DNA from: a virus
Length of the DNA stretch: 24,087 nucleotides
Virus record (IMG/VR): IMGVR_UViG_3300047300_000194
Location: 1-24,087 of that record
Strand: one strand, 5' to 3'
Within the stretch, counting starts at the first letter, position 1, and each line of letters begins with the position of its first letter. Positions 9,296 to 15,804 of this stretch are shown piece by piece. Below the pieces are notes generated by a model. That model was not told where the DNA came from, did no database searches, and saw only the letters and a program-made list of their open reading frames with translations. The position numbers and the translations under genes are program-made.

Positions 9296-10312
9296 ATGAG
9301 TAATCTATTTAAAAAGGCCGCGGTCTTTACCGACATTCACTTTGGTTTAAAATCAAACAGTCAACTACATAACGAAGACTGTTTGTCTTTCGTTAAATGG
9401 GCCACTGCCAAAGCAAAAGAGGAGGGGTGCGAAACGTGTCTATTCCTTGGCGATTGGCATAACAACAGGGCTAGCATTAACATCCTAACCCTCCAATATA
9501 GCTTACAAGCACTGGAGCATCTCAATGATAATTTCGAAACTGTTTATTTTATTCCTGGTAACCATGATTTGTACTATCGTGACAAGCGGGACGTACAATC
9601 TGTGGAATGGGCAAAACACTTACCCAACATCAAGATATGCAATGATTGGTTCTCTAGCGGTGATGTGGTTATCGCTCCTTGGCTTGTGGCTGAAGACCAT
9701 AAACGAATTCCTAAACTAAAAGGCAAATACATGTTCGGGCACTTTGAACTGCCCGGATATTTAATGAACGCAATGGTTGCTATGCCCGAACACGGCGAAC
9801 TCCGTGGCGATGACTTCCAGGGATTTGAACATGTGTTTAGCGGTCACTTTCACAAGCGCCAAACCCAGCGCAATATCACATACGTAGGCAATTGCTTCCC
9901 ACATAACTATGCAGATGCTGGCGACGATGATCGCGGTATGATGATACTTGAATGGGGCAAGCAACCTGAATTTCATGCATGGCCCGACCAACCCAAGTAT
10001 CGTGTATTTCAACTTAGCGATGTTATCAATCATACTGAAGCAATGCTTAAACCCGGTATGCATTGCCGCGTTAACTTAGACATTGATATTAGTTATGAAG
10101 AAGCAACGTTTATTAAAGAAACGTTTATCGATACTTACAAGTTACGTGAGATTACCCTTATCCCTGCTAAAGTTACAGAGCTAACTGAATACGAAATACA
10201 AGGCAACATTGAGTTTGAAAGTGTTGACCAAATTGTTGCAGGACAACTTAGTTCATTGGAAAATGGCAAGTTTAACAAGAATCTGTTGCTAGACATTTAT
10301 CGTAACTTGTGA
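9296..10312 (+). CDS. 47: Recombination endonuclease subunit gp47 (SbcD/Mre11-like metallophosphoesterase)
   Basis: This 338-aa protein is the nuclease subunit that pairs with gp46 to resect DNA ends for recombination-dependent replication and host DNA degradation. All metal-binding motifs of the calcineurin-like phosphoesterase fold are present: D13-x-H15, G-D53-W-H55-N, G-N89-H90-D91, the G-H-F-E-L element near residue 150, and G-H184-F-H186-K-R. Length matches T4 gp47 (339 aa). The stop overlaps the next ATG as TGATG. The start codon has no Shine-Dalgarno element and sits six bases after a candidate -10 box. Two extra genes separate it from gene 46. Confidence 0.93.
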   Translation: MSNLFKKAAVFTDIHFGLKSNSQLHNEDCLSFVKWATAKAKEEGCETCLFLGDWHNNRASINILTLQYSLQALEHLNDNFETVYFIPGNHDLYYRDKRDVQSVEWAKHLPNIKICNDWFSSGDVVIAPWLVAEDHKRIPKLKGKYMFGHFELPGYLMNAMVAMPEHGELRGDDFQGFEHVFSGHFHKRQTQRNITYVGNCFPHNYADAGDDDRGMMILEWGKQPEFHAWPDQPKYRVFQLSDVINHTEAMLKPGMHCRVNLDIDISYEEATFIKETFIDTYKLREITLIPAKVTELTEYEIQGNIEFESVDQIVAGQLSSLENGKFNKNLLLDIYRNL

Positions 10313-10992
10313 TGAAGCATTTTGATCCAACAAGTAAAGACATAATTGTTATAAATTATCCGCCGGGCGGATTTGGTAACTTCTTATATCATTTATTTTC
10401 TGAGTTTGCTAACGAAACCGTTAAAGTTAACAACCGTTTTGAATTTAGCAAAACCGGTAACAGTCATGCAACTTGGAAATACACACAAACCTATCGTGCT
10501 CAGTACCCGTATTATCCTGTTATTGATCACAACGCAAACGCCGACGGTAAGAAAATTTTAGTGTTATGCGACAACGGTTTAGAAAACCCAGAACTCGATA
10601 ATGTAATTAATACATTTCCAAATGCACAAATTATCCGGGTAGTCCCAAACGATTCTTCGAGATATTTGTTAATGCAAACTTGTACAGAAAAGGCCGCAGT
10701 AAAAGTCTTACATGATTTATCGTACGATCCGCTAATTGCCATATGGGATAGATCCGTTCTAGGTCCTAAAATTGATTTGTGGACTTCAATTGAGCATAGC
10801 AATGTACATAACTTAATGCTAACTGCTTTAGTATTAGACCCTGTTAAAGAATTTGAACGCTTATGTTCAAAATTGGGGTTAACAGTATTCAACCAGGACA
10901 ACTTAGAATTATTTTGTAATGAATGGGCAGAACAAAATCGCAGGTACATAGAGCCTTTTAAAGAATACTATGATAGATCTAAAAACAGTTAA
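10312..10992 (+). CDS. Putative P-loop / sulfotransferase-like protein
   Basis: I do not recognise this 226-aa protein with certainty. Near the N-terminus a beta-strand leads into Y-P-P-G-G-F-G-N-F-L (residues about 15-24), a glycine-rich loop resembling the PAPS-binding loop of sulfotransferase-like proteins rather than a GKT/S Walker A. The C-terminal part (E-W-A-E-Q-N-R-R-Y-I-E-P-F) is also like the ends of such proteins. If so it would transfer sulfate from PAPS to a carbohydrate or other acceptor, but this is inference and no second substrate-binding motif is obvious. The ATG at 10312 overlaps the gp47 stop (TGATG), which favours coupling, and the gene overlaps the next radical SAM gene by 23 bases. 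The tight overlaps on both sides place it in one operon with the nuclease and radical SAM genes. Confidence 0.55.
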   Translation: MKHFDPTSKDIIVINYPPGGFGNFLYHLFSEFANETVKVNNRFEFSKTGNSHATWKYTQTYRAQYPYYPVIDHNANADGKKILVLCDNGLENPELDNVINTFPNAQIIRVVPNDSSRYLLMQTCTEKAAVKVLHDLSYDPLIAIWDRSVLGPKIDLWTSIEHSNVHNLMLTALVLDPVKEFERLCSKLGLTVFNQDNLELFCNEWAEQNRRYIEPFKEYYDRSKNS

Positions 10993-11839
10993 GTGGCTTC
11001 AAATCGAAGCTTCTAGCAAATGCAATGCCTGGTGTCCGGGCTGTTCTCGCAACAAAAACGGATACGAGCTTGCTGACGATCTTGTAATTGAGGATTTAAA
11101 GACTGAGCGTTTTGCTGAAGTACTAGCAATGATGCCCAACTTAGAAGTTGCGGACTTTTGTGGCACGTTCGGAGATGCTATTGCCGCTAGCAACATTGTT
11201 GAGCTTACTGAATTAGCAAAGGCTGTTCCAGAAATACTTGTACGCACCAATGGCAGTCTACGCAACGAAGATTGGTGGCGTGACTACGCTAAACAGCTAG
11301 CAGGACACAAACATAACGTTTGGTTTTGCTTAGACGGGCTAGAAGATACCCATCACATCTACAGACAAGGCACTGACTGGCAAAAGATTATTCGCAATGC
11401 TACAGCATTTATTGAAGCAGGTGGCTATGCTACGTGGCAGTTTATCCCATGGGCACACAACGAACACCAAATCAAAGACTGCTTGCGACTGAGTCAAAAG
11501 TTAGGATTTAAGAAGTTTGAGTTGTACAAGCGTGTACGCACAAACTTTTCTGCACGTGATTATAGAACTGGTGCTCCTGTTAATATACAGCCATGGAGCC
11601 GTAACGAAACTATCAACCCGTTAACGTTTGTAAAGACTAGAGTGGAAACAAAAGACTGTATGCATTTGGCTTTCCCTAGCATGTACTTAAATGCTAGTGG
11701 TAAATTAAATGTTTGCTGTTTCTTTAACAAGTTTTTTGCAGACGAAGACCCGTCCAAACTTATGGACATTACAACCCAGCTTGCTAATACAGATTCGGTA
11801 CATAGAGTTTGTATGCACCATTGCGGAAGCAACACATAA
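10970..11839 (+). CDS. Radical SAM protein 1 with C-terminal auxiliary cysteines
   Basis: The 289-aa protein has the canonical CxxxCxxC motif that binds the [4Fe-4S] cluster (C18, C22, C25), following an L-Q-I-E strand, so it should cleave S-adenosylmethionine to a 5'-deoxyadenosyl radical. The central part has D-G-L-E-D-T-H-H-I-Y-R and A-H-N-E-H-Q. The last 65 residues carry further cysteines (D-C-M-H-L, N-V-C-C-F-F, V-C-M-H-H-C-G), like a SPASM or twitch domain that holds an auxiliary cluster. Family members with such domains often modify peptides or proteins; the substrate here is unknown. It is a clear paralogue of the radical SAM gene at 13611-14474. It overlaps the upstream gene by 23 bases and ends 18 bases before gene 46, inside the span that separates 47 from 46. 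Confidence 0.85.
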   Translation: MIDLKTVKWLQIEASSKCNAWCPGCSRNKNGYELADDLVIEDLKTERFAEVLAMMPNLEVADFCGTFGDAIAASNIVELTELAKAVPEILVRTNGSLRNEDWWRDYAKQLAGHKHNVWFCLDGLEDTHHIYRQGTDWQKIIRNATAFIEAGGYATWQFIPWAHNEHQIKDCLRLSQKLGFKKFELYKRVRTNFSARDYRTGAPVNIQPWSRNETINPLTFVKTRVETKDCMHLAFPSMYLNASGKLNVCCFFNKFFADEDPSKLMDITTQLANTDSVHRVCMHHCGSNT

Positions 11840-11849
11840 CAAGTATAAT
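11821..11849 (+). promoter_or_regulatory. Sigma-70-type promoter abutting gene 46
   Basis: TTGCGG (11821-11826), a 17-base spacer and a perfect TATAAT (11844-11849) precede gene 46. Only eight bases lie between the -10 box and the ATG, so the transcript would start at or next to the start codon. The -35 lies in the 3' end of radical SAM gene 1. The AGCCCA that follows the -10 box is also found before gene 47. Confidence 0.6.
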
Positions 11850-11857
11850 AGCCCAGT

Positions 11858-13627
11858 ATGTTCAAAATTAAAGACTTAACAGTTAAAAACTTCATGAGTG
11901 TGGGTAATGCCACACAGGCCGTCAACTTTGACCGCAGGGACTTAACACTAGTACTTGGGGAAAACTTAGATTTAGGGGGCGATGACTCAGGCGCACGTAA
12001 CGGTACGGGCAAGACCACTATCATTAATGCCTTGTCCTATGCCCTTTACGGCAACGCCCTCACCAATATTAAGAAGGACAACTTAATCAACAAAACAAAC
12101 CAAAAAGGCATGATGGTTTGTATCGACTTCGAAAAAGACGGCATTGATTATCGCATTGAACGCGGACGTAAGCCCGGCGTTATGCGCTTCTTTGTAAGTG
12201 GTAACGAAAAAGAAATCACAGACGAAGCACAAGGCGATAGCAGAGAAACTCAAGCAGAAATTGAACGTATGTTGGGCATGAGCCACGACATGTTCAAGCA
12301 CATTGTTGCGCTAAACACATATACAGAACCGTTCTTGAGTTTAAAAGCCAATGACCAACGTGTAATCATTGAGCAGTTGTTAGGTATTACATTGCTTAGT
12401 GAAAAGGCTGAACGTCTTAAAGAATTAAACAAGGCCACTAAGGATGCAATTACTCAAGAAGAATTCCGCATCAAAGCAGTAGGCGATGCTAATAAACGTA
12501 TCCAAGATCAAATTGACGCTCTGCTAAGACGCCAAACGCTATGGACCACTAAGAAGTCCGGCGATGTTGCGGCACTACAGTCTGCGTATGATCAACTTGC
12601 ACAAATCGACATCGAAGCAGAGTTAGCGGCGCATCATGCACTGACCGAATACAACAACAAATCCAAACTGATTAAAGATTTAACTGGATGGATTAAACGT
12701 TGCGAACTAGATGAAGCACGAGAAAATAAAACTATAGAAAAACTCAAAGCCGATATTGCTAGTTTAGAAAATCACACCTGCCACAGTTGCGGGCAAGCGT
12801 TCCACGATTCAAAACAAGAGACGTTGCTAGAGGAAAAGAAAGCGGCATTACAGGAAGCCGCATTACAAGCACTAGCAACAAATACACAGTGGTTAGAACA
12901 TTCTGATGCACTAAAAGAGCTAGGAGAGCTAGGTCCACAGCCGCAGGTGTTCTACGATCGCGAAAGCGATGCGTTTGAACATCGCAGTAGCATGGCTAGT
13001 GTGCTAGCGCAGTTGTCTGCTAAAGAGTCAGAAGCGGATCCATATGCAGAACAAATTAAAGAAATGCAGGATCAAGCATTAGAAGAAATTGATTATGCTG
13101 TAATGAATGATCTAGTAAGTTTAAAAGAGCACCAAGAGTTCTTGCTTAAACTGTTAACAAACAAAGATTCGTTTATTCGCAAACGTATTATCGATCAGAA
13201 CTTATCGTACTTAAATGCTCGCTTAGGACAATACTTAGATCGTATTGGCTTGCCGCATACTGTAAAATTCAACAACGACTTAACTGTAAGCATTACAGAA
13301 CTAGGCCGCGACTTAGACTTTGACAACTTGTCTCGAGGCGAACGTAACAGATTGATCTTATCACTATCGTGGGCGTTCCGCGATGTGTGGGAAAGCTTGT
13401 ATCAACCAATTAACTTGCTGTTCATCGACGAACTTATCGACTCAGGTATGGACAGTAACGGTGTTGAAAACAGTTTAGGCATCCTTAAGAAGATGGCACG
13501 TGATGCTAACAAGAGTATTTGGCTTGTGTCACACAAAGACGAACTAGCAGGGCGTGTAAACAATACACTACATGTTATCAAAGAAAACGGATATACCAGT
13601 TACAACACCGATGTTGACATTGTTTGA
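11858..13627 (+). CDS. 46: Recombination endonuclease subunit gp46 (SbcC/Rad50-like ATPase)
   Basis: This 589-aa protein is the ATPase partner of gp47 in the phage Mre11/Rad50-type complex. Walker A is G-A-R-N-G-T-G-K-T-T (residues about 45-54). A coiled coil runs from about 185 to 440, interrupted by the zinc hook C-H-S-C-G at about 308-312. The ABC signature L-S-R-G-E-R-N-R lies near 490 and Walker B L-L-F-I-D-E-L near 521, with a late W-L-V-S-H-K-D-E switch histidine. Length is close to T4 gp46 (560 aa). No Shine-Dalgarno element precedes the ATG; a perfect TATAAT ends eight bases upstream. The 3' end overlaps the next radical SAM gene by 17 bases. Confidence 0.94.
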   Translation: MFKIKDLTVKNFMSVGNATQAVNFDRRDLTLVLGENLDLGGDDSGARNGTGKTTIINALSYALYGNALTNIKKDNLINKTNQKGMMVCIDFEKDGIDYRIERGRKPGVMRFFVSGNEKEITDEAQGDSRETQAEIERMLGMSHDMFKHIVALNTYTEPFLSLKANDQRVIIEQLLGITLLSEKAERLKELNKATKDAITQEEFRIKAVGDANKRIQDQIDALLRRQTLWTTKKSGDVAALQSAYDQLAQIDIEAELAAHHALTEYNNKSKLIKDLTGWIKRCELDEARENKTIEKLKADIASLENHTCHSCGQAFHDSKQETLLEEKKAALQEAALQALATNTQWLEHSDALKELGELGPQPQVFYDRESDAFEHRSSMASVLAQLSAKESEADPYAEQIKEMQDQALEEIDYAVMNDLVSLKEHQEFLLKLLTNKDSFIRKRIIDQNLSYLNARLGQYLDRIGLPHTVKFNNDLTVSITELGRDLDFDNLSRGERNRLILSLSWAFRDVWESLYQPINLLFIDELIDSGMDSNGVENSLGILKKMARDANKSIWLVSHKDELAGRVNNTLHVIKENGYTSYNTDVDIV

Positions 13628-14474
13628 AACTGCCCGAGTATTGCACATTGAGCCTACAGATGTTTGTCAGGCTGCATGTCCTGCGTGTGCCCGGGAAACG
13701 GATCCTGCGTTTGATAAGCGAGTACACAACTACCACACGTTGCGTAGTTTTAAAAATACTGTGCCAGAAAAGCTTATCTATCGTCTAGATAAAGTTTACA
13801 TGTGTGGTAACTACGGCGATCCTGCGGCTAATGAGGAAAGCAAGTCTATTCTCTCGTATGTTCGTGAAGTAAACAGTAGCATTGTGTTAGGCATGAATAC
13901 CAACGGCGGGCTGCAAAGTTCTTATTGGTGGGCCGATTTAGGACTTGTAATGTACAAGCCCGAAGATTACGTTGTGTTTAGTATAGACGGACTAGAAGAC
14001 ACCAATCACATTTATCGCCGAAACGTTTCGTGGGATAGAGTAATGCGTAATGCTGAAACATTTATTTCAGCAGGCGGCAATGCACACTGGGATATGCTGG
14101 TATTCAAACACAATGAGCATCAAGTTGATGCTTGCGAAAAGCTAGCAAAGAGCATGGGCTTTAAATGGTTCCGTGCTAAAGTTAGTAAACGCCCTGTTCC
14201 CACAGGATTAGCACAACCCGTACAGTGGACAAGACCTACAGCTAAAGGCACAATACAATGTCAGGCTCTTGCAGATAGAGGCTTGTTTTTAAGCGCAAAA
14301 GGCGTGTTTAGCCCCTGTTGTTGGCTAGGAGAAGCGGATCCGACGGCAGATTTTGCACAAGTACAACAGAGCTGGGGTACAGCTACCCCGCACAAGACCT
14401 GTACAGAAATGTGCAGTTCTGCAAACAATTTAACTAACTTTGCCAGCCAATGGCAAAGGGTAACAGAATTTTAA
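13611..14474 (+). CDS. Radical SAM protein 2, paralogue of the one at 10970
   Basis: The 287-aa protein has CxxxCxxC at C19, C23 and C26 after an L-H-I-E strand. It shares with radical SAM protein 1 the D-G-L-E-D-T-x-H-I-Y-R block, the R-N-A-x-x-F-I-x-A-G-G block, the H-N-E-H-Q motif and the C-terminal cysteine set (Q-C-Q-A-L, P-C-C-W-L-G, T-C-T-E-M-C), so the two arose from a common ancestor, yet they are strongly diverged. I chose the ATG at 13611 because it gives the same distance to the cluster motif as in protein 1; an in-frame ATG at 13572 would add 13 residues and overlap gene 46 by 56 bases. The substrate is unknown. Co-transcription with gp46 is likely because of the overlap. Confidence 0.85.
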   Translation: MLTLFETARVLHIEPTDVCQAACPACARETDPAFDKRVHNYHTLRSFKNTVPEKLIYRLDKVYMCGNYGDPAANEESKSILSYVREVNSSIVLGMNTNGGLQSSYWWADLGLVMYKPEDYVVFSIDGLEDTNHIYRRNVSWDRVMRNAETFISAGGNAHWDMLVFKHNEHQVDACEKLAKSMGFKWFRAKVSKRPVPTGLAQPVQWTRPTAKGTIQCQALADRGLFLSAKGVFSPCCWLGEADPTADFAQVQQSWGTATPHKTCTEMCSSANNLTNFASQWQRVTEF

Positions 14475-14517: not shown

Positions 14518-14946
14518 ATGACATGGCACTTTCAAGGAACTCCCGTTGACACTCTCCCCGAGGATTGCGTGGGTTTCGTATATCTTATCACAAACACAGT
14601 ATCAGGGCGCAAATACATAGGTAAGAAACTAGCAAAATTTTCTAAAACAACTCAAAAAACAGTAAAATTAAAGAACGGCACCAAGAAGAAAAAGAAAATC
14701 CGCAGTAAAGTGGATTCTGATTGGCGCGATTATTATGGCTCAAGTCCCGAATTAAGCAAAGATGTAGAAGCATTAGGCGCTGACAAATTTACAAGAGAAA
14801 TTCTATACTATTGTAAAAGTAAAGCAGAATGTAGCTATGTTGAAGCTAGGGAACAATTCACACGTAAAGTTTTAGAAACATCAGATTATTATAACGGACA
14901 CATTCAAGTCCGTGTCCATGGCTCCCACATCTTAAACAAAATCTAA
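14518..14946 (+). CDS. GIY-YIG family endonuclease-like protein
   Basis: The 142-aa protein begins with a GIY-YIG nuclease core: G19-F-V-Y22 then, eleven residues later, Y33-I-G35-K-K. The second strand tyrosine pair is thus present with a variant first motif (G-F-V-Y). A lysine-rich insertion (about residues 40-65) follows, then D-W-R-D-Y-Y-G-S-S, a C-K-S-K-A-E-C-S-Y-V-E-A-R-E helix carrying a possible catalytic glutamate, and a Y-Y-N-G element near the end. Small stand-alone GIY-YIG proteins in T4-like phages can be homing endonucleases (Seg) or host-DNA nucleases (DenA); I cannot decide which this is. It is the last gene of the rightward block and is followed by the structured non-coding region. 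Confidence 0.72.
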   Translation: MTWHFQGTPVDTLPEDCVGFVYLITNTVSGRKYIGKKLAKFSKTTQKTVKLKNGTKKKKKIRSKVDSDWRDYYGSSPELSKDVEALGADKFTREILYYCKSKAECSYVEAREQFTRKVLETSDYYNGHIQVRVHGSHILNKI

Positions 14947-15435
14947 TTAAACGGTTTATGGCTCACGCAGGCTAATATCATGCGTATAGGAAAACTGGAC
15001 CTCGGGTCACAGGGACGTAAATCTTTCGCCGTTAAAAGTACTCAATCACTATCCTTAACAGGACGAAGATCGCAAATTGCCGCGGTTTGATTGTTTGAAG
15101 AGAATAAAGCGATTGCGTGCCAGGAGTGCAAGCAATTAAGTAAAGGCTAAAAAGACGCAGAAGCGATTCTGCAGGTTTGTATAATATGTTAGCGTATGTT
15201 ATGCAAATTGCCGTTGTGATAAAGACGCAACTCGAGGTACCGGACAACCGCCTCTGTAATGTTGTAACGCTATGTGGCTGTGCTACTCAGATGAAGCCCA
15301 TTCATTTCTTTGCCCTGTGCGGGCAAAGTGTGACCGATTAATCTAGATGAAACTAGTATTCGCTTCGCTCTTAATGTAAACTAATTAAAATACATGTTGT
15401 GAGCGTAAGCGAAACAACAGATCTCGTTAGAGATC
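14947..15435. ncRNA. Candidate structured non-coding RNA region between convergent genes
   Basis: About 490 bases hold no convincing gene but many inverted repeats. From left to right: ACGCA/TGCGT (14965-14985); GACC-TCG-GGTC (14998-15008); a long helix of 14 pairs with three single-base bulges (15021-15035 with 15055-15070); ATTGC-G-TGC against GCA-A-GCAAT (15112-15136); GCAGAA-GCGA-TTCTGC with a GNRA loop (15157-15172); GAGG..CGG-ACAA-CCG-CCTC (15234-15254); CTTTGCCC/GGGCAAAG (15308-15328); and a 12-pair helix with one bulge (15359-15370 with 15401-15413) that encloses ATGTA/TACAT. The GNRA loop exists only if the plus strand is the RNA. I find no tRNA T-loop, no tmRNA tag and no RNase P core motif. 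Family and function are unknown. Confidence 0.5.
15180..15185 (+). promoter_or_regulatory. Perfect TATAAT inside the non-coding region
   Basis: A perfect -10 hexamer lies just after the GNRA hairpin. No -35 hexamer is seen 16-18 bases upstream, though TG directly precedes the box. It could start a short transcript covering 15192 to about 15436, which would contain the three strong downstream hairpins, or a 46-codon open frame at 15201-15341 that I do not otherwise support. Confidence 0.3.
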
Positions 15436-15436
15436 T
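15419..15436. terminator. Hairpin between convergent transcripts, possible bidirectional terminator
   Basis: AGATCTC-GTTA-GAGATCT forms a perfect 7-bp stem with a four-base loop and touches the stop codon of the leftward DUF6165 gene. On the minus strand the stem is followed by GTTGTTTCG, moderately U-rich; on the plus strand by TAATATATC. Neither side has a strong U tract, so termination is plausible but unproven. It is placed as expected for the end of both converging units. Confidence 0.4.
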
Positions 15437-15804
15437 TAATATATCTTCTCTTCAATGATCTTACTGTTGCTTAGTAAGTTGATTTGCTTTTTAATGCTAG
15501 CACGTATATCATTTTTAATGTATACCGATCGAGCGAGTTGAATAAATTCGAAATCGAACTGTTGTGCAGTTTCGCACTTTCTCTTGCTATCTTCAATAAC
15601 CCACAGCTCTGAGTTAATTTTGTACAGTTCCGCTTTAAGGGCTGTTACGTCTACGTTTAAGCTATTATACAGTTCGAGTAGTAGTTTTAACTCTCGCTGT
15701 ACGTTAGCTAACTTTTCAGCATCCGACGTCTTGGATGCTTTGATTTCTAGGATTGTGATTTTATCGACTAGTTCGCCGATGCTAATAGGTGCTAGGACTG
15801 ACAT
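15436..15804 (-). CDS. DUF6165 family protein
   Basis: The 122-aa protein matches the DUF6165 pattern as I know it: I-S-I-G-E-L-V-D-K-I-T-I-L-E-I-K near the N-terminus, L-x-x-I-N-S-E-L-W-V-I-E-D in the middle, F-I-Q-L-A-R-S-V-Y-I-K-N-D-I-R-A further on, and a closing I-I-E-E-K-I-Y. It is predicted to be nearly all alpha-helical with no membrane segment. In bacteria the family is found near surface-polysaccharide glycosyltransferase genes, but its biochemical role is not established. Here it is the last gene of a gp26-led operon, one base after the preceding stop codon, so it is probably expressed late. Confidence 0.75.
   Translation of the reverse strand: MSVLAPISIGELVDKITILEIKASKTSDAEKLANVQRELKLLLELYNSLNVDVTALKAELYKINSELWVIEDSKRKCETAQQFDFEFIQLARSVYIKNDIRASIKKQINLLSNSKIIEEKIY

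Follow-up and report, generated by a model that had tools for sequence, protein, structure and literature searches.

A Modular Phage RNA That Extends the Polynucleobacter-1 Motif and Carries Two Co-changing Heptamers

Relation to Known Large RNAs

GOLLD is a large, phage-borne, pseudoknotted RNA that combines a constant 3′ part with a divergent 5′ part (PMC12286853). ROOL and OLE are also large ornate RNAs, of which ROOL occurs in phages and prophages and has intertwined 5′ and 3′ parts (PMC12286853). The HEARO and IscB omega RNAs are structured RNAs that adjoin an endonuclease gene. In two antisense RNAs, phage c4 RNA and ColE1 RNAI, specificity is set by short sequences that change under selection and pair with a known target. 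The Polynucleobacter-1 motif (RF01718) was described in 2010 from Burkholderiales and from fresh water or estuary as probably an RNA and probably cis-regulatory (“cis-reg: y”) (PMC2864571). A full-text search of a limited collection of papers found Polynucleobacter-1 named in none other than that description.

The RNA described here lies in the window, the whole 24,087-nt stretch of DNA analyzed (positions 1 to 24,087 of IMG/VR virus record IMGVR_UViG_3300047300_000194). It is reminiscent of GOLLD in being large, phage-borne, and pseudoknotted, and it fits the GOLLD criterion of a conserved 3′ and a divergent 5′ region, the 3′ module being all that its three types (A, B1, and B2) have in common. 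It differs from GOLLD in its length (about 480 nt rather than more than 800 nt), in lying outside a tRNA island, and in its twin coevolving heptamers, which are not described for GOLLD; the homo-oligomeric nanocage of GOLLD has not been shown for this RNA. Even at E values as high as 5, the GOLLD Rfam model fails to match 14900–15480, and ROOL and OLE have no Rfam match in the block. Unlike those of ROOL, the parts of this RNA are modular. As with HEARO/IscB, the RNA adjoins an endonuclease gene, but the nuclease belongs to another family, no guide is visible, and the RNA is kept without the nuclease. The likeness to c4 RNA and RNAI is limited to the short sequences changing under selection, whereas a search around the RNA and across three phage records gave no target complementary to the heptamers. 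The Polynucleobacter-1 model includes neither the 5′ pseudoknot arm of this RNA nor the pseudoknot to 15145–15147; it also lacks the 3′ module with its twin heptamers and does not represent types B1 and B2. The cis-regulation ascribed to it in 2010 is unsupported for the RNA of the window.

Extent of the RNA and Absence of a Gene

The window belongs to a T4-like phage, with genes for a portal, a prohead protease, a T4-type baseplate protein, and SbcC/D-like recombination proteins. The RNA and its neighbors are as follows.

14518–14946, plus strand: SegE-type GIY-YIG nuclease gene (PF19835, E 3.7e-34)
14950–15436, plus strand: whole type A structured RNA, ~487 nt (nhmmer homologues, covariation, G-U versus A-C counts)
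14960–15096, plus strand: Polynucleobacter-1 (RF01718) match, the sole part previously catalogued (cmscan 111 bits, gathering score 37, E 1.2e-23)
15436–15804, minus strand: convergent downstream gene, DUF6165 (PF19662)

The original prediction, made from the letters alone, had described 14947–15435 as a gene-free, folded RNA between a GIY-YIG gene and a late operon end. This block contains no credible gene. Among 165 relatives, the longest open stretch on the plus strand has a median of 53 codons versus 55 in shuffled sequences (68 versus 59 on the minus strand), and the RNA lengths cover all values modulo 3. Coding in the block is not supported. The plus strand folds with an MFE of −139.1 kcal/mol (z = −2.41), a value that none of 100 shuffles attains, and the minus strand with z = −1.77. 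The proposed boundary genes were likewise recovered, upstream as PF19835 and downstream as minus-strand genes, and neither a normal folding energy nor a coding signal, which would have refuted the prediction, was encountered. Its extent is corrected to ~14950–15436: the RNA starts next to the GIY-YIG stop codon and ends with a terminal hairpin, although the true transcript ends are undetermined.

The RF01718 match (137 nt) spans the full 141-position model (positions 1–141) and is the only Rfam family to reach its gathering score within the window. RF01718 covers only the 5′ third of the type A RNA. The failure of the original prediction to match any known RNA therefore stands for tRNA, tmRNA, RNase P, 6S, and riboswitches but not for 14960–15096: no tRNA or tmRNA is called in the window, and no riboswitch, group I intron, RNase P, tmRNA, or 6S RNA matches there at the Rfam gathering score. 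A role as a CRISPR repeat decoy was rejected: CRISPR-DR57 scores just 15.1 bits (E 2.7), where its gathering score is 39.

Homologues and Covariation

IMG/VR was searched with a conserved core and with the upstream protein. In the collected loci nhmmer aligns the entire block, beyond the first third, and the carriers comprise at least hundreds of uncultured lake-type viruses of bacteria. Four of the six large phage records searched contain one type A match each, and the other two hold B1 and B2. No homologue of any type was found in cultured phages by blastn, and a pattern scan of bacterial genomes yields just weak 19-nt chance matches. The loci are metagenomic contigs, mostly from one broad clade; since they were fetched via exact patterns or via the upstream protein, their frequencies are not population estimates and their totals are lower bounds.

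Some relatives are contigs of 345–364 kb, and three of them (340 kb of each examined) carry dozens of tRNA calls together with tmRNA calls. In one 346 kb phage contig (L562:10821-11310), with ~27 tRNA calls, the tmRNA called by ARAGORN has an unusually long predicted tag, ANVNKTVTVSGKNIKFSARSAKEALAV, and is possibly a false positive.

Covariation was evaluated in a MAFFT alignment of 165 full-length type A sequences from which near-duplicates had been removed, against a home-made null that keeps the tree and the per-column rate; it resembles R-scape but is not R-scape. At E ≤ 1, 52 column pairs are observed, 38 of which are at least 80% Watson–Crick or G-U. A 96-pair structure was then scored in a 50-sequence alignment made by a different tool. 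There, 92.0% of cells are paired, versus 78.0% after shuffling and 35.5–41.1% when the structure is slid; two-sided change is found in 69 of the 96 pairs, and the covariation score is 0.41 versus 0.06–0.08 in controls. Because the structure was read off the 165-sequence alignment, of which the 50 sequences are a subset, these counts lean toward the structure, yet the slid controls remain far below it. Across the pairs G-U is seen 1707 times and A-C 311 times, which places the RNA on the plus strand. The compensatory signal, which the original prediction had named as a check along with shuffled energies, is very strong; most pairs are backed by compensatory change. By these measures the whole block is kept as one folded ~480-nt RNA in at least hundreds of viral contigs. 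The family is large, modular, and supported by covariation, and the earlier catalogue held only its first third.

Structural Elements

The type A RNA comprises the following elements, five of whose helices are of pseudoknot type (14951–14955 × 15028–15032, 14960–14963 × 14970–14973, 15079–15081 × 15145–15147, 15190–15195 × 15267–15272, and 15213–15217 × 15244–15248).

14951–15032, plus strand: pseudoknot helix 14951–14955 × 15028–15032, in which the 5′ end pairs into the loop of hairpin 15023–15038
14960–14985, plus strand: pseudoknotted hairpin, 14960–14963 × 14970–14973 with 14965–14969 × 14981–14985 (covariation, pair counts)
15043–15147, plus strand: stem 15043–15048 × 15088–15093 around hairpins 15053–15062 and 15068–15087 (covariation, pair counts)
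15176–15272, plus strand: long hairpin 15176–15187 × 15196–15207, whose loop 15190–15195 forms a pseudoknot with 15267–15272 (covariation)
15213–15264, plus strand: conserved core of 15213–15217 × 15244–15248 (pseudoknot), 15228–15231 × 15261–15264, and 15235–15238 × 15250–15253
15308–15328, plus strand: hairpin CUUUGCCC/GGGCAAAG between the heptamers (pair counts), replaced by other hairpins in B1 and B2
15396–15418, plus strand: bulged helix with a nested stem capped by GUAA (covariation)
15419–15436, plus strand: terminal hairpin AGATCTC-GTTA-GAGATCT (99.6% of cells paired, two-sided change in 5/5 pairs)

The Rfam model begins at 14960 and thus excludes the first helix, which is 86.7% paired, with two-sided change in three of its five pairs and covariation of 14953–15030 (E 0.025) and 14951–15032 (E 0.8). 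This pseudoknot and that formed by loop 15079–15081 with 15145–15147, which is supported by covariation and pair counts, reach beyond the model, and the pseudoknots of 15190–15195 and 15213–15217 lie wholly outside it. All 12 pairs of stem 15176–15187 × 15196–15207 and all 6 of the pseudoknot made by its loop show two-sided change, with covariation of 15194–15268 at E 0.025. In the core, which includes GAGGTACCGGACAACCGCC, the null never scored as high as pairs 15228–15264, 15229–15263, and 15230–15262. The helix at 15396–15418 is just 50% paired in alignment A1, because it is locally misaligned there. The terminal hairpin is terminator-like, and a strong T run is absent.

The helices first noticed in the single sequence are present: the 14-pair helix (15175–15188 × 15195–15208), the 8-bp stem (15308–15315 × 15321–15328), the bulged helix with its nested stem (15396–15418), and the GNRA hairpin, whose GUAA loop is 15405–15408. 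A list of inverted repeats cannot show the pseudoknot helices.

Columns 15052 and 15064 covary (T/C with C/T) without pairing, accompanied by a switch at 15055–15060, where some phages have a UUAACA-type loop and others a GNRA tetraloop; this may represent the swap of a tertiary contact. A pairing of GGUCACA (15005–15011) with UGUGACC was dropped, the 5′ side varying in the alignments and the 3′ side being fixed.

Exchange of the 5′ Part

In some loci that share this GIY-YIG gene, the match is confined to the 3′ module. The 5′ part is found in three unrelated types, A (that of the window), B1, and B2, and the 3′ module is common to all. The B1 and B2 5′ parts cannot be aligned, are internally conserved, and have their own covarying pairs; Rfam matches are absent from the B1 and B2 loci tested. 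At least 486 typed loci split cleanly into A (252), B1 (147), and B2 (87).

The type switches 50 times along a tree built from 320 GIY-YIG proteins, compared with a shuffled mean of 126, and GIY-YIG proteins that are 99–100% identical can precede different RNA types. In aligned near-identical pairs, homology ends at or within a few nucleotides of the GIY-YIG stop codon and restarts near or just past the second heptamer. Because these breaks flank the RNA body between near-identical phages, the body is a swapped cassette. Recombination inside the GIY-YIG gene could inflate the 50 switches but not the near-identical pairs.

Neighboring Genes

Of the 192 listed loci that have enough upstream sequence, 174 have a GIY-YIG gene directly upstream of the RNA and 14 have it displaced; none was found in the other 4. 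With this adjacency, the absence of a consensus late promoter before the RNA (no upstream peak of the late-promoter word TATAAATA), and the hairpin at its end, the RNA could be a 3′ UTR element that stabilizes, ends, or cis-regulates the GIY-YIG mRNA. That reading is considered unlikely, though not negligible. Among the 14 loci in which the two are separated, complete other genes intervene where inspected (radical SAM, sulfotransferase-like, and SGNH-like, named by reading the sequences without a family search). In L274, L228, and L311 a gene of 171–172 aa (SPQKAKGNSWERKVADHLTALYG...), nuclease-like on reading, replaces GIY-YIG at the same spot and possibly encodes another nuclease. In addition, the RNA type is uncoupled from the GIY-YIG sequence, and an RNA of more than 480 nt that forms five pseudoknots far exceeds what a terminator needs. 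Since GIY-YIG is separated or replaced in some loci, the RNA is independent of this neighbor.

The same loci bear on a role as an omega-like guide for the nuclease in RNA-guided homing, which by analogy with HEARO/IscB would suit a large structured RNA with short variable elements that adjoins a nuclease gene in a rapidly exchanged locus. The criterion that such an RNA is always encoded with its nuclease is unmet in L274, L228, L264, and L311, where the RNA persists and no GIY-YIG gene was found nearby. In the cultured phages inspected, moreover, the corresponding position beside GIY-YIG relatives holds no such RNA. A terminal guide is not evident, and the heptamers sit inside the RNA and belong to a restricted set of sequences, leaving the guide role very improbable.

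On the 3′ side, the convergent DUF6165 gene, followed on the minus strand by the T4-type baseplate gene, speaks against a leader role of the RNA for the next gene, which was judged probable for Polynucleobacter-1 in 2010, when flanking sequence was scarce (PMC2864571). The criterion of lying upstream of a co-oriented gene is not met in the window, and a minus-strand baseplate gene is downstream in 128 of the 218 pattern-fetched loci listed. The late-promoter word does occur, in 22 of 143 loci, within a bin of 100 nt that begins 400 nt past the RNA start; it sits there at the 3′ end of the RNA, however, and not before it. A cis-regulatory leader is scarcely credible on these grounds.

Two observations concern the surrounding genes. 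The family phrog_447/PF19835 is labeled “NAD synthetase” in many phage records despite its SegE-type GIY-YIG domain, likely a propagated misannotation. In the window, the island at 9296–14474, which adjoins the RNA, mixes SbcD- and SbcC-like genes (T4 gp47/gp46 type) with two radical SAM genes and also holds a weak sulfotransferase-like match; it is variable, with other genes in relatives.

Twin Heptamers

Two copies of one heptamer, called X, are found in the 3′ part of the RNA.

15289–15295, plus strand: heptamer X copy 1, AGATGAA (AGAUGAA), after the invariant ACTC (15285–15288)
15345–15351, plus strand: heptamer X copy 2, AGATGAA (AGAUGAA), after ATCT (15341–15344)

Across phages the consensus is [AG][GC]AT[AG]A[TAG], after ACTC and ATCT. 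In the 165 type A sequences, columns 15289/15345, 15293/15349, and 15295/15351 covary at scores never reached by the null, and they do so by identity (G-G or A-A; T-T, A-A, or G-G), not by complementarity. The copies are identical in 161 of the 165 aligned RNAs, the remaining four differing at one letter, and an independent scan in which identity was not assumed gives 433 of 445 RNAs of the three types. By type, identity is seen in 233/239 (A), 126/129 (B1), and 74/77 (B2), compared with about 42, 41, and 52 on re-pairing within type; the excess is weakest in B2 because a single heptamer dominates that type. The B1 alignment separately shows identity covariation, which is weaker (E 0.2–0.53). 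On a type A tree built with the heptamer columns left out, copy 1 changed 57 times, copy 2 changed 57 times, and the pair changed jointly 58 times; as reconstructed on that tree, changes hit both copies essentially always. Single metagenome samples hold several heptamers and types.

Gene conversion between the copies is unlikely, since the ACTC and ATCT flanks stay different and only 7 nt match, repeatedly. The distance between the copies ranges from 47 to 64 nt across phages, which argues against a fixed DNA-helix phase. Comparison of the sequences shows the two sites to be kept identical by selection. To our knowledge, such coevolution has no counterpart in the GOLLD and Polynucleobacter-1 families.

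Base 15284, before ACTC, covaries with 15338–15340, before ATCT, partly by identity, and B1 and B2 give similar signals; the coupled unit may be one base longer on the 5′ side than the heptamer.

Covariation of G with G, A with A, and U with U is what is expected if the heptamers contact each other, through parallel homo-base pairs or a dimer interface, without an outside partner; dimers of OLE RNA use conserved symmetric A-A pairs (PMC12286853). Such a contact is nevertheless rather improbable. The repeats run parallel (i with i+56), an arrangement that RNA very rarely adopts, their distance is not constant, and in B2 the G to C change at position 2 of both copies would need C-C pairs. Two other candidates were rejected. 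Pairing of heptamer 1 with the AUCU of unit 2 is broken, without compensation, by the C at position 2 in B2, and an RNA titrating CsrA/RsmA would need GGA in each binding site, which AGAUGAA, AGAUAAU, ACAUGAA, and other heptamers lack.

No partner complementary to the heptamers was found inside the RNA or within 3 kb of it, and class-specific enrichment of multi-site targets around the locus is absent. Flanking sites that change with the heptamer number 18 of 9796 aligned sites, versus 6 of 7801 in controls, and none is consistent. In three large phage records (340 kb each), the RNA itself apart, neither gene starts nor tRNAs recurred as candidate partners, nor did paired complementary sites.

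Proposed Function

The explanation favored here, at slightly better than even confidence as a whole, is that the block encodes a stand-alone, trans-acting, GOLLD-like large phage RNA that contacts one variable partner through its twin heptamers, that its carriers are T4-like and often jumbo phages, and that Polynucleobacter-1 is its 5′ third. Expression and the partner are inferred, and the case for a trans role rests on conservation and genome arrangement, without an assay. As it is not preceded by a consensus late promoter, the RNA would be read from the operon upstream, and it would mature or terminate at its 3′ hairpin. The 5′ body may act as a scaffold, by analogy with the architecture of GOLLD. 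The heptamers are envisaged as accessible sites that bind two equivalent positions on one variable partner; if they do, a change in one copy would be kept only if the other follows. The partner could be an RNA, of the phage or of its host, or else a dimeric protein, and it may sit in the host or in phage DNA that was not read. The adjacency of GIY-YIG in most loci still permits a function shared with this gene.

Through these results a minor 141-nt orphan motif becomes a large, modular phage RNA family of at least hundreds of members that is amenable to synthesis, probing, and imaging. Joint change in two heptamers that are not complementary to each other is seldom seen in evolution and points to a specific binding event, and matched and mismatched heptamer swaps offer a direct handle on large phage RNAs of unknown function.

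The rapid exchange of types and their coexistence suggest, in the absence of an assay, selection for differing specificity, as in phage competition or counter-defense, rather than a housekeeping role. More tentatively, and as no more than a possibility, the RNA may constitute a specificity system in which a swappable body carries a recognition word, present twice and evolving in the manner of an address. If so, the RNA of each lineage would act on, or be immune to, no partners but those that bear its own word, which would amount to RNA-based competition among related jumbo phages or to evasion of host defense.
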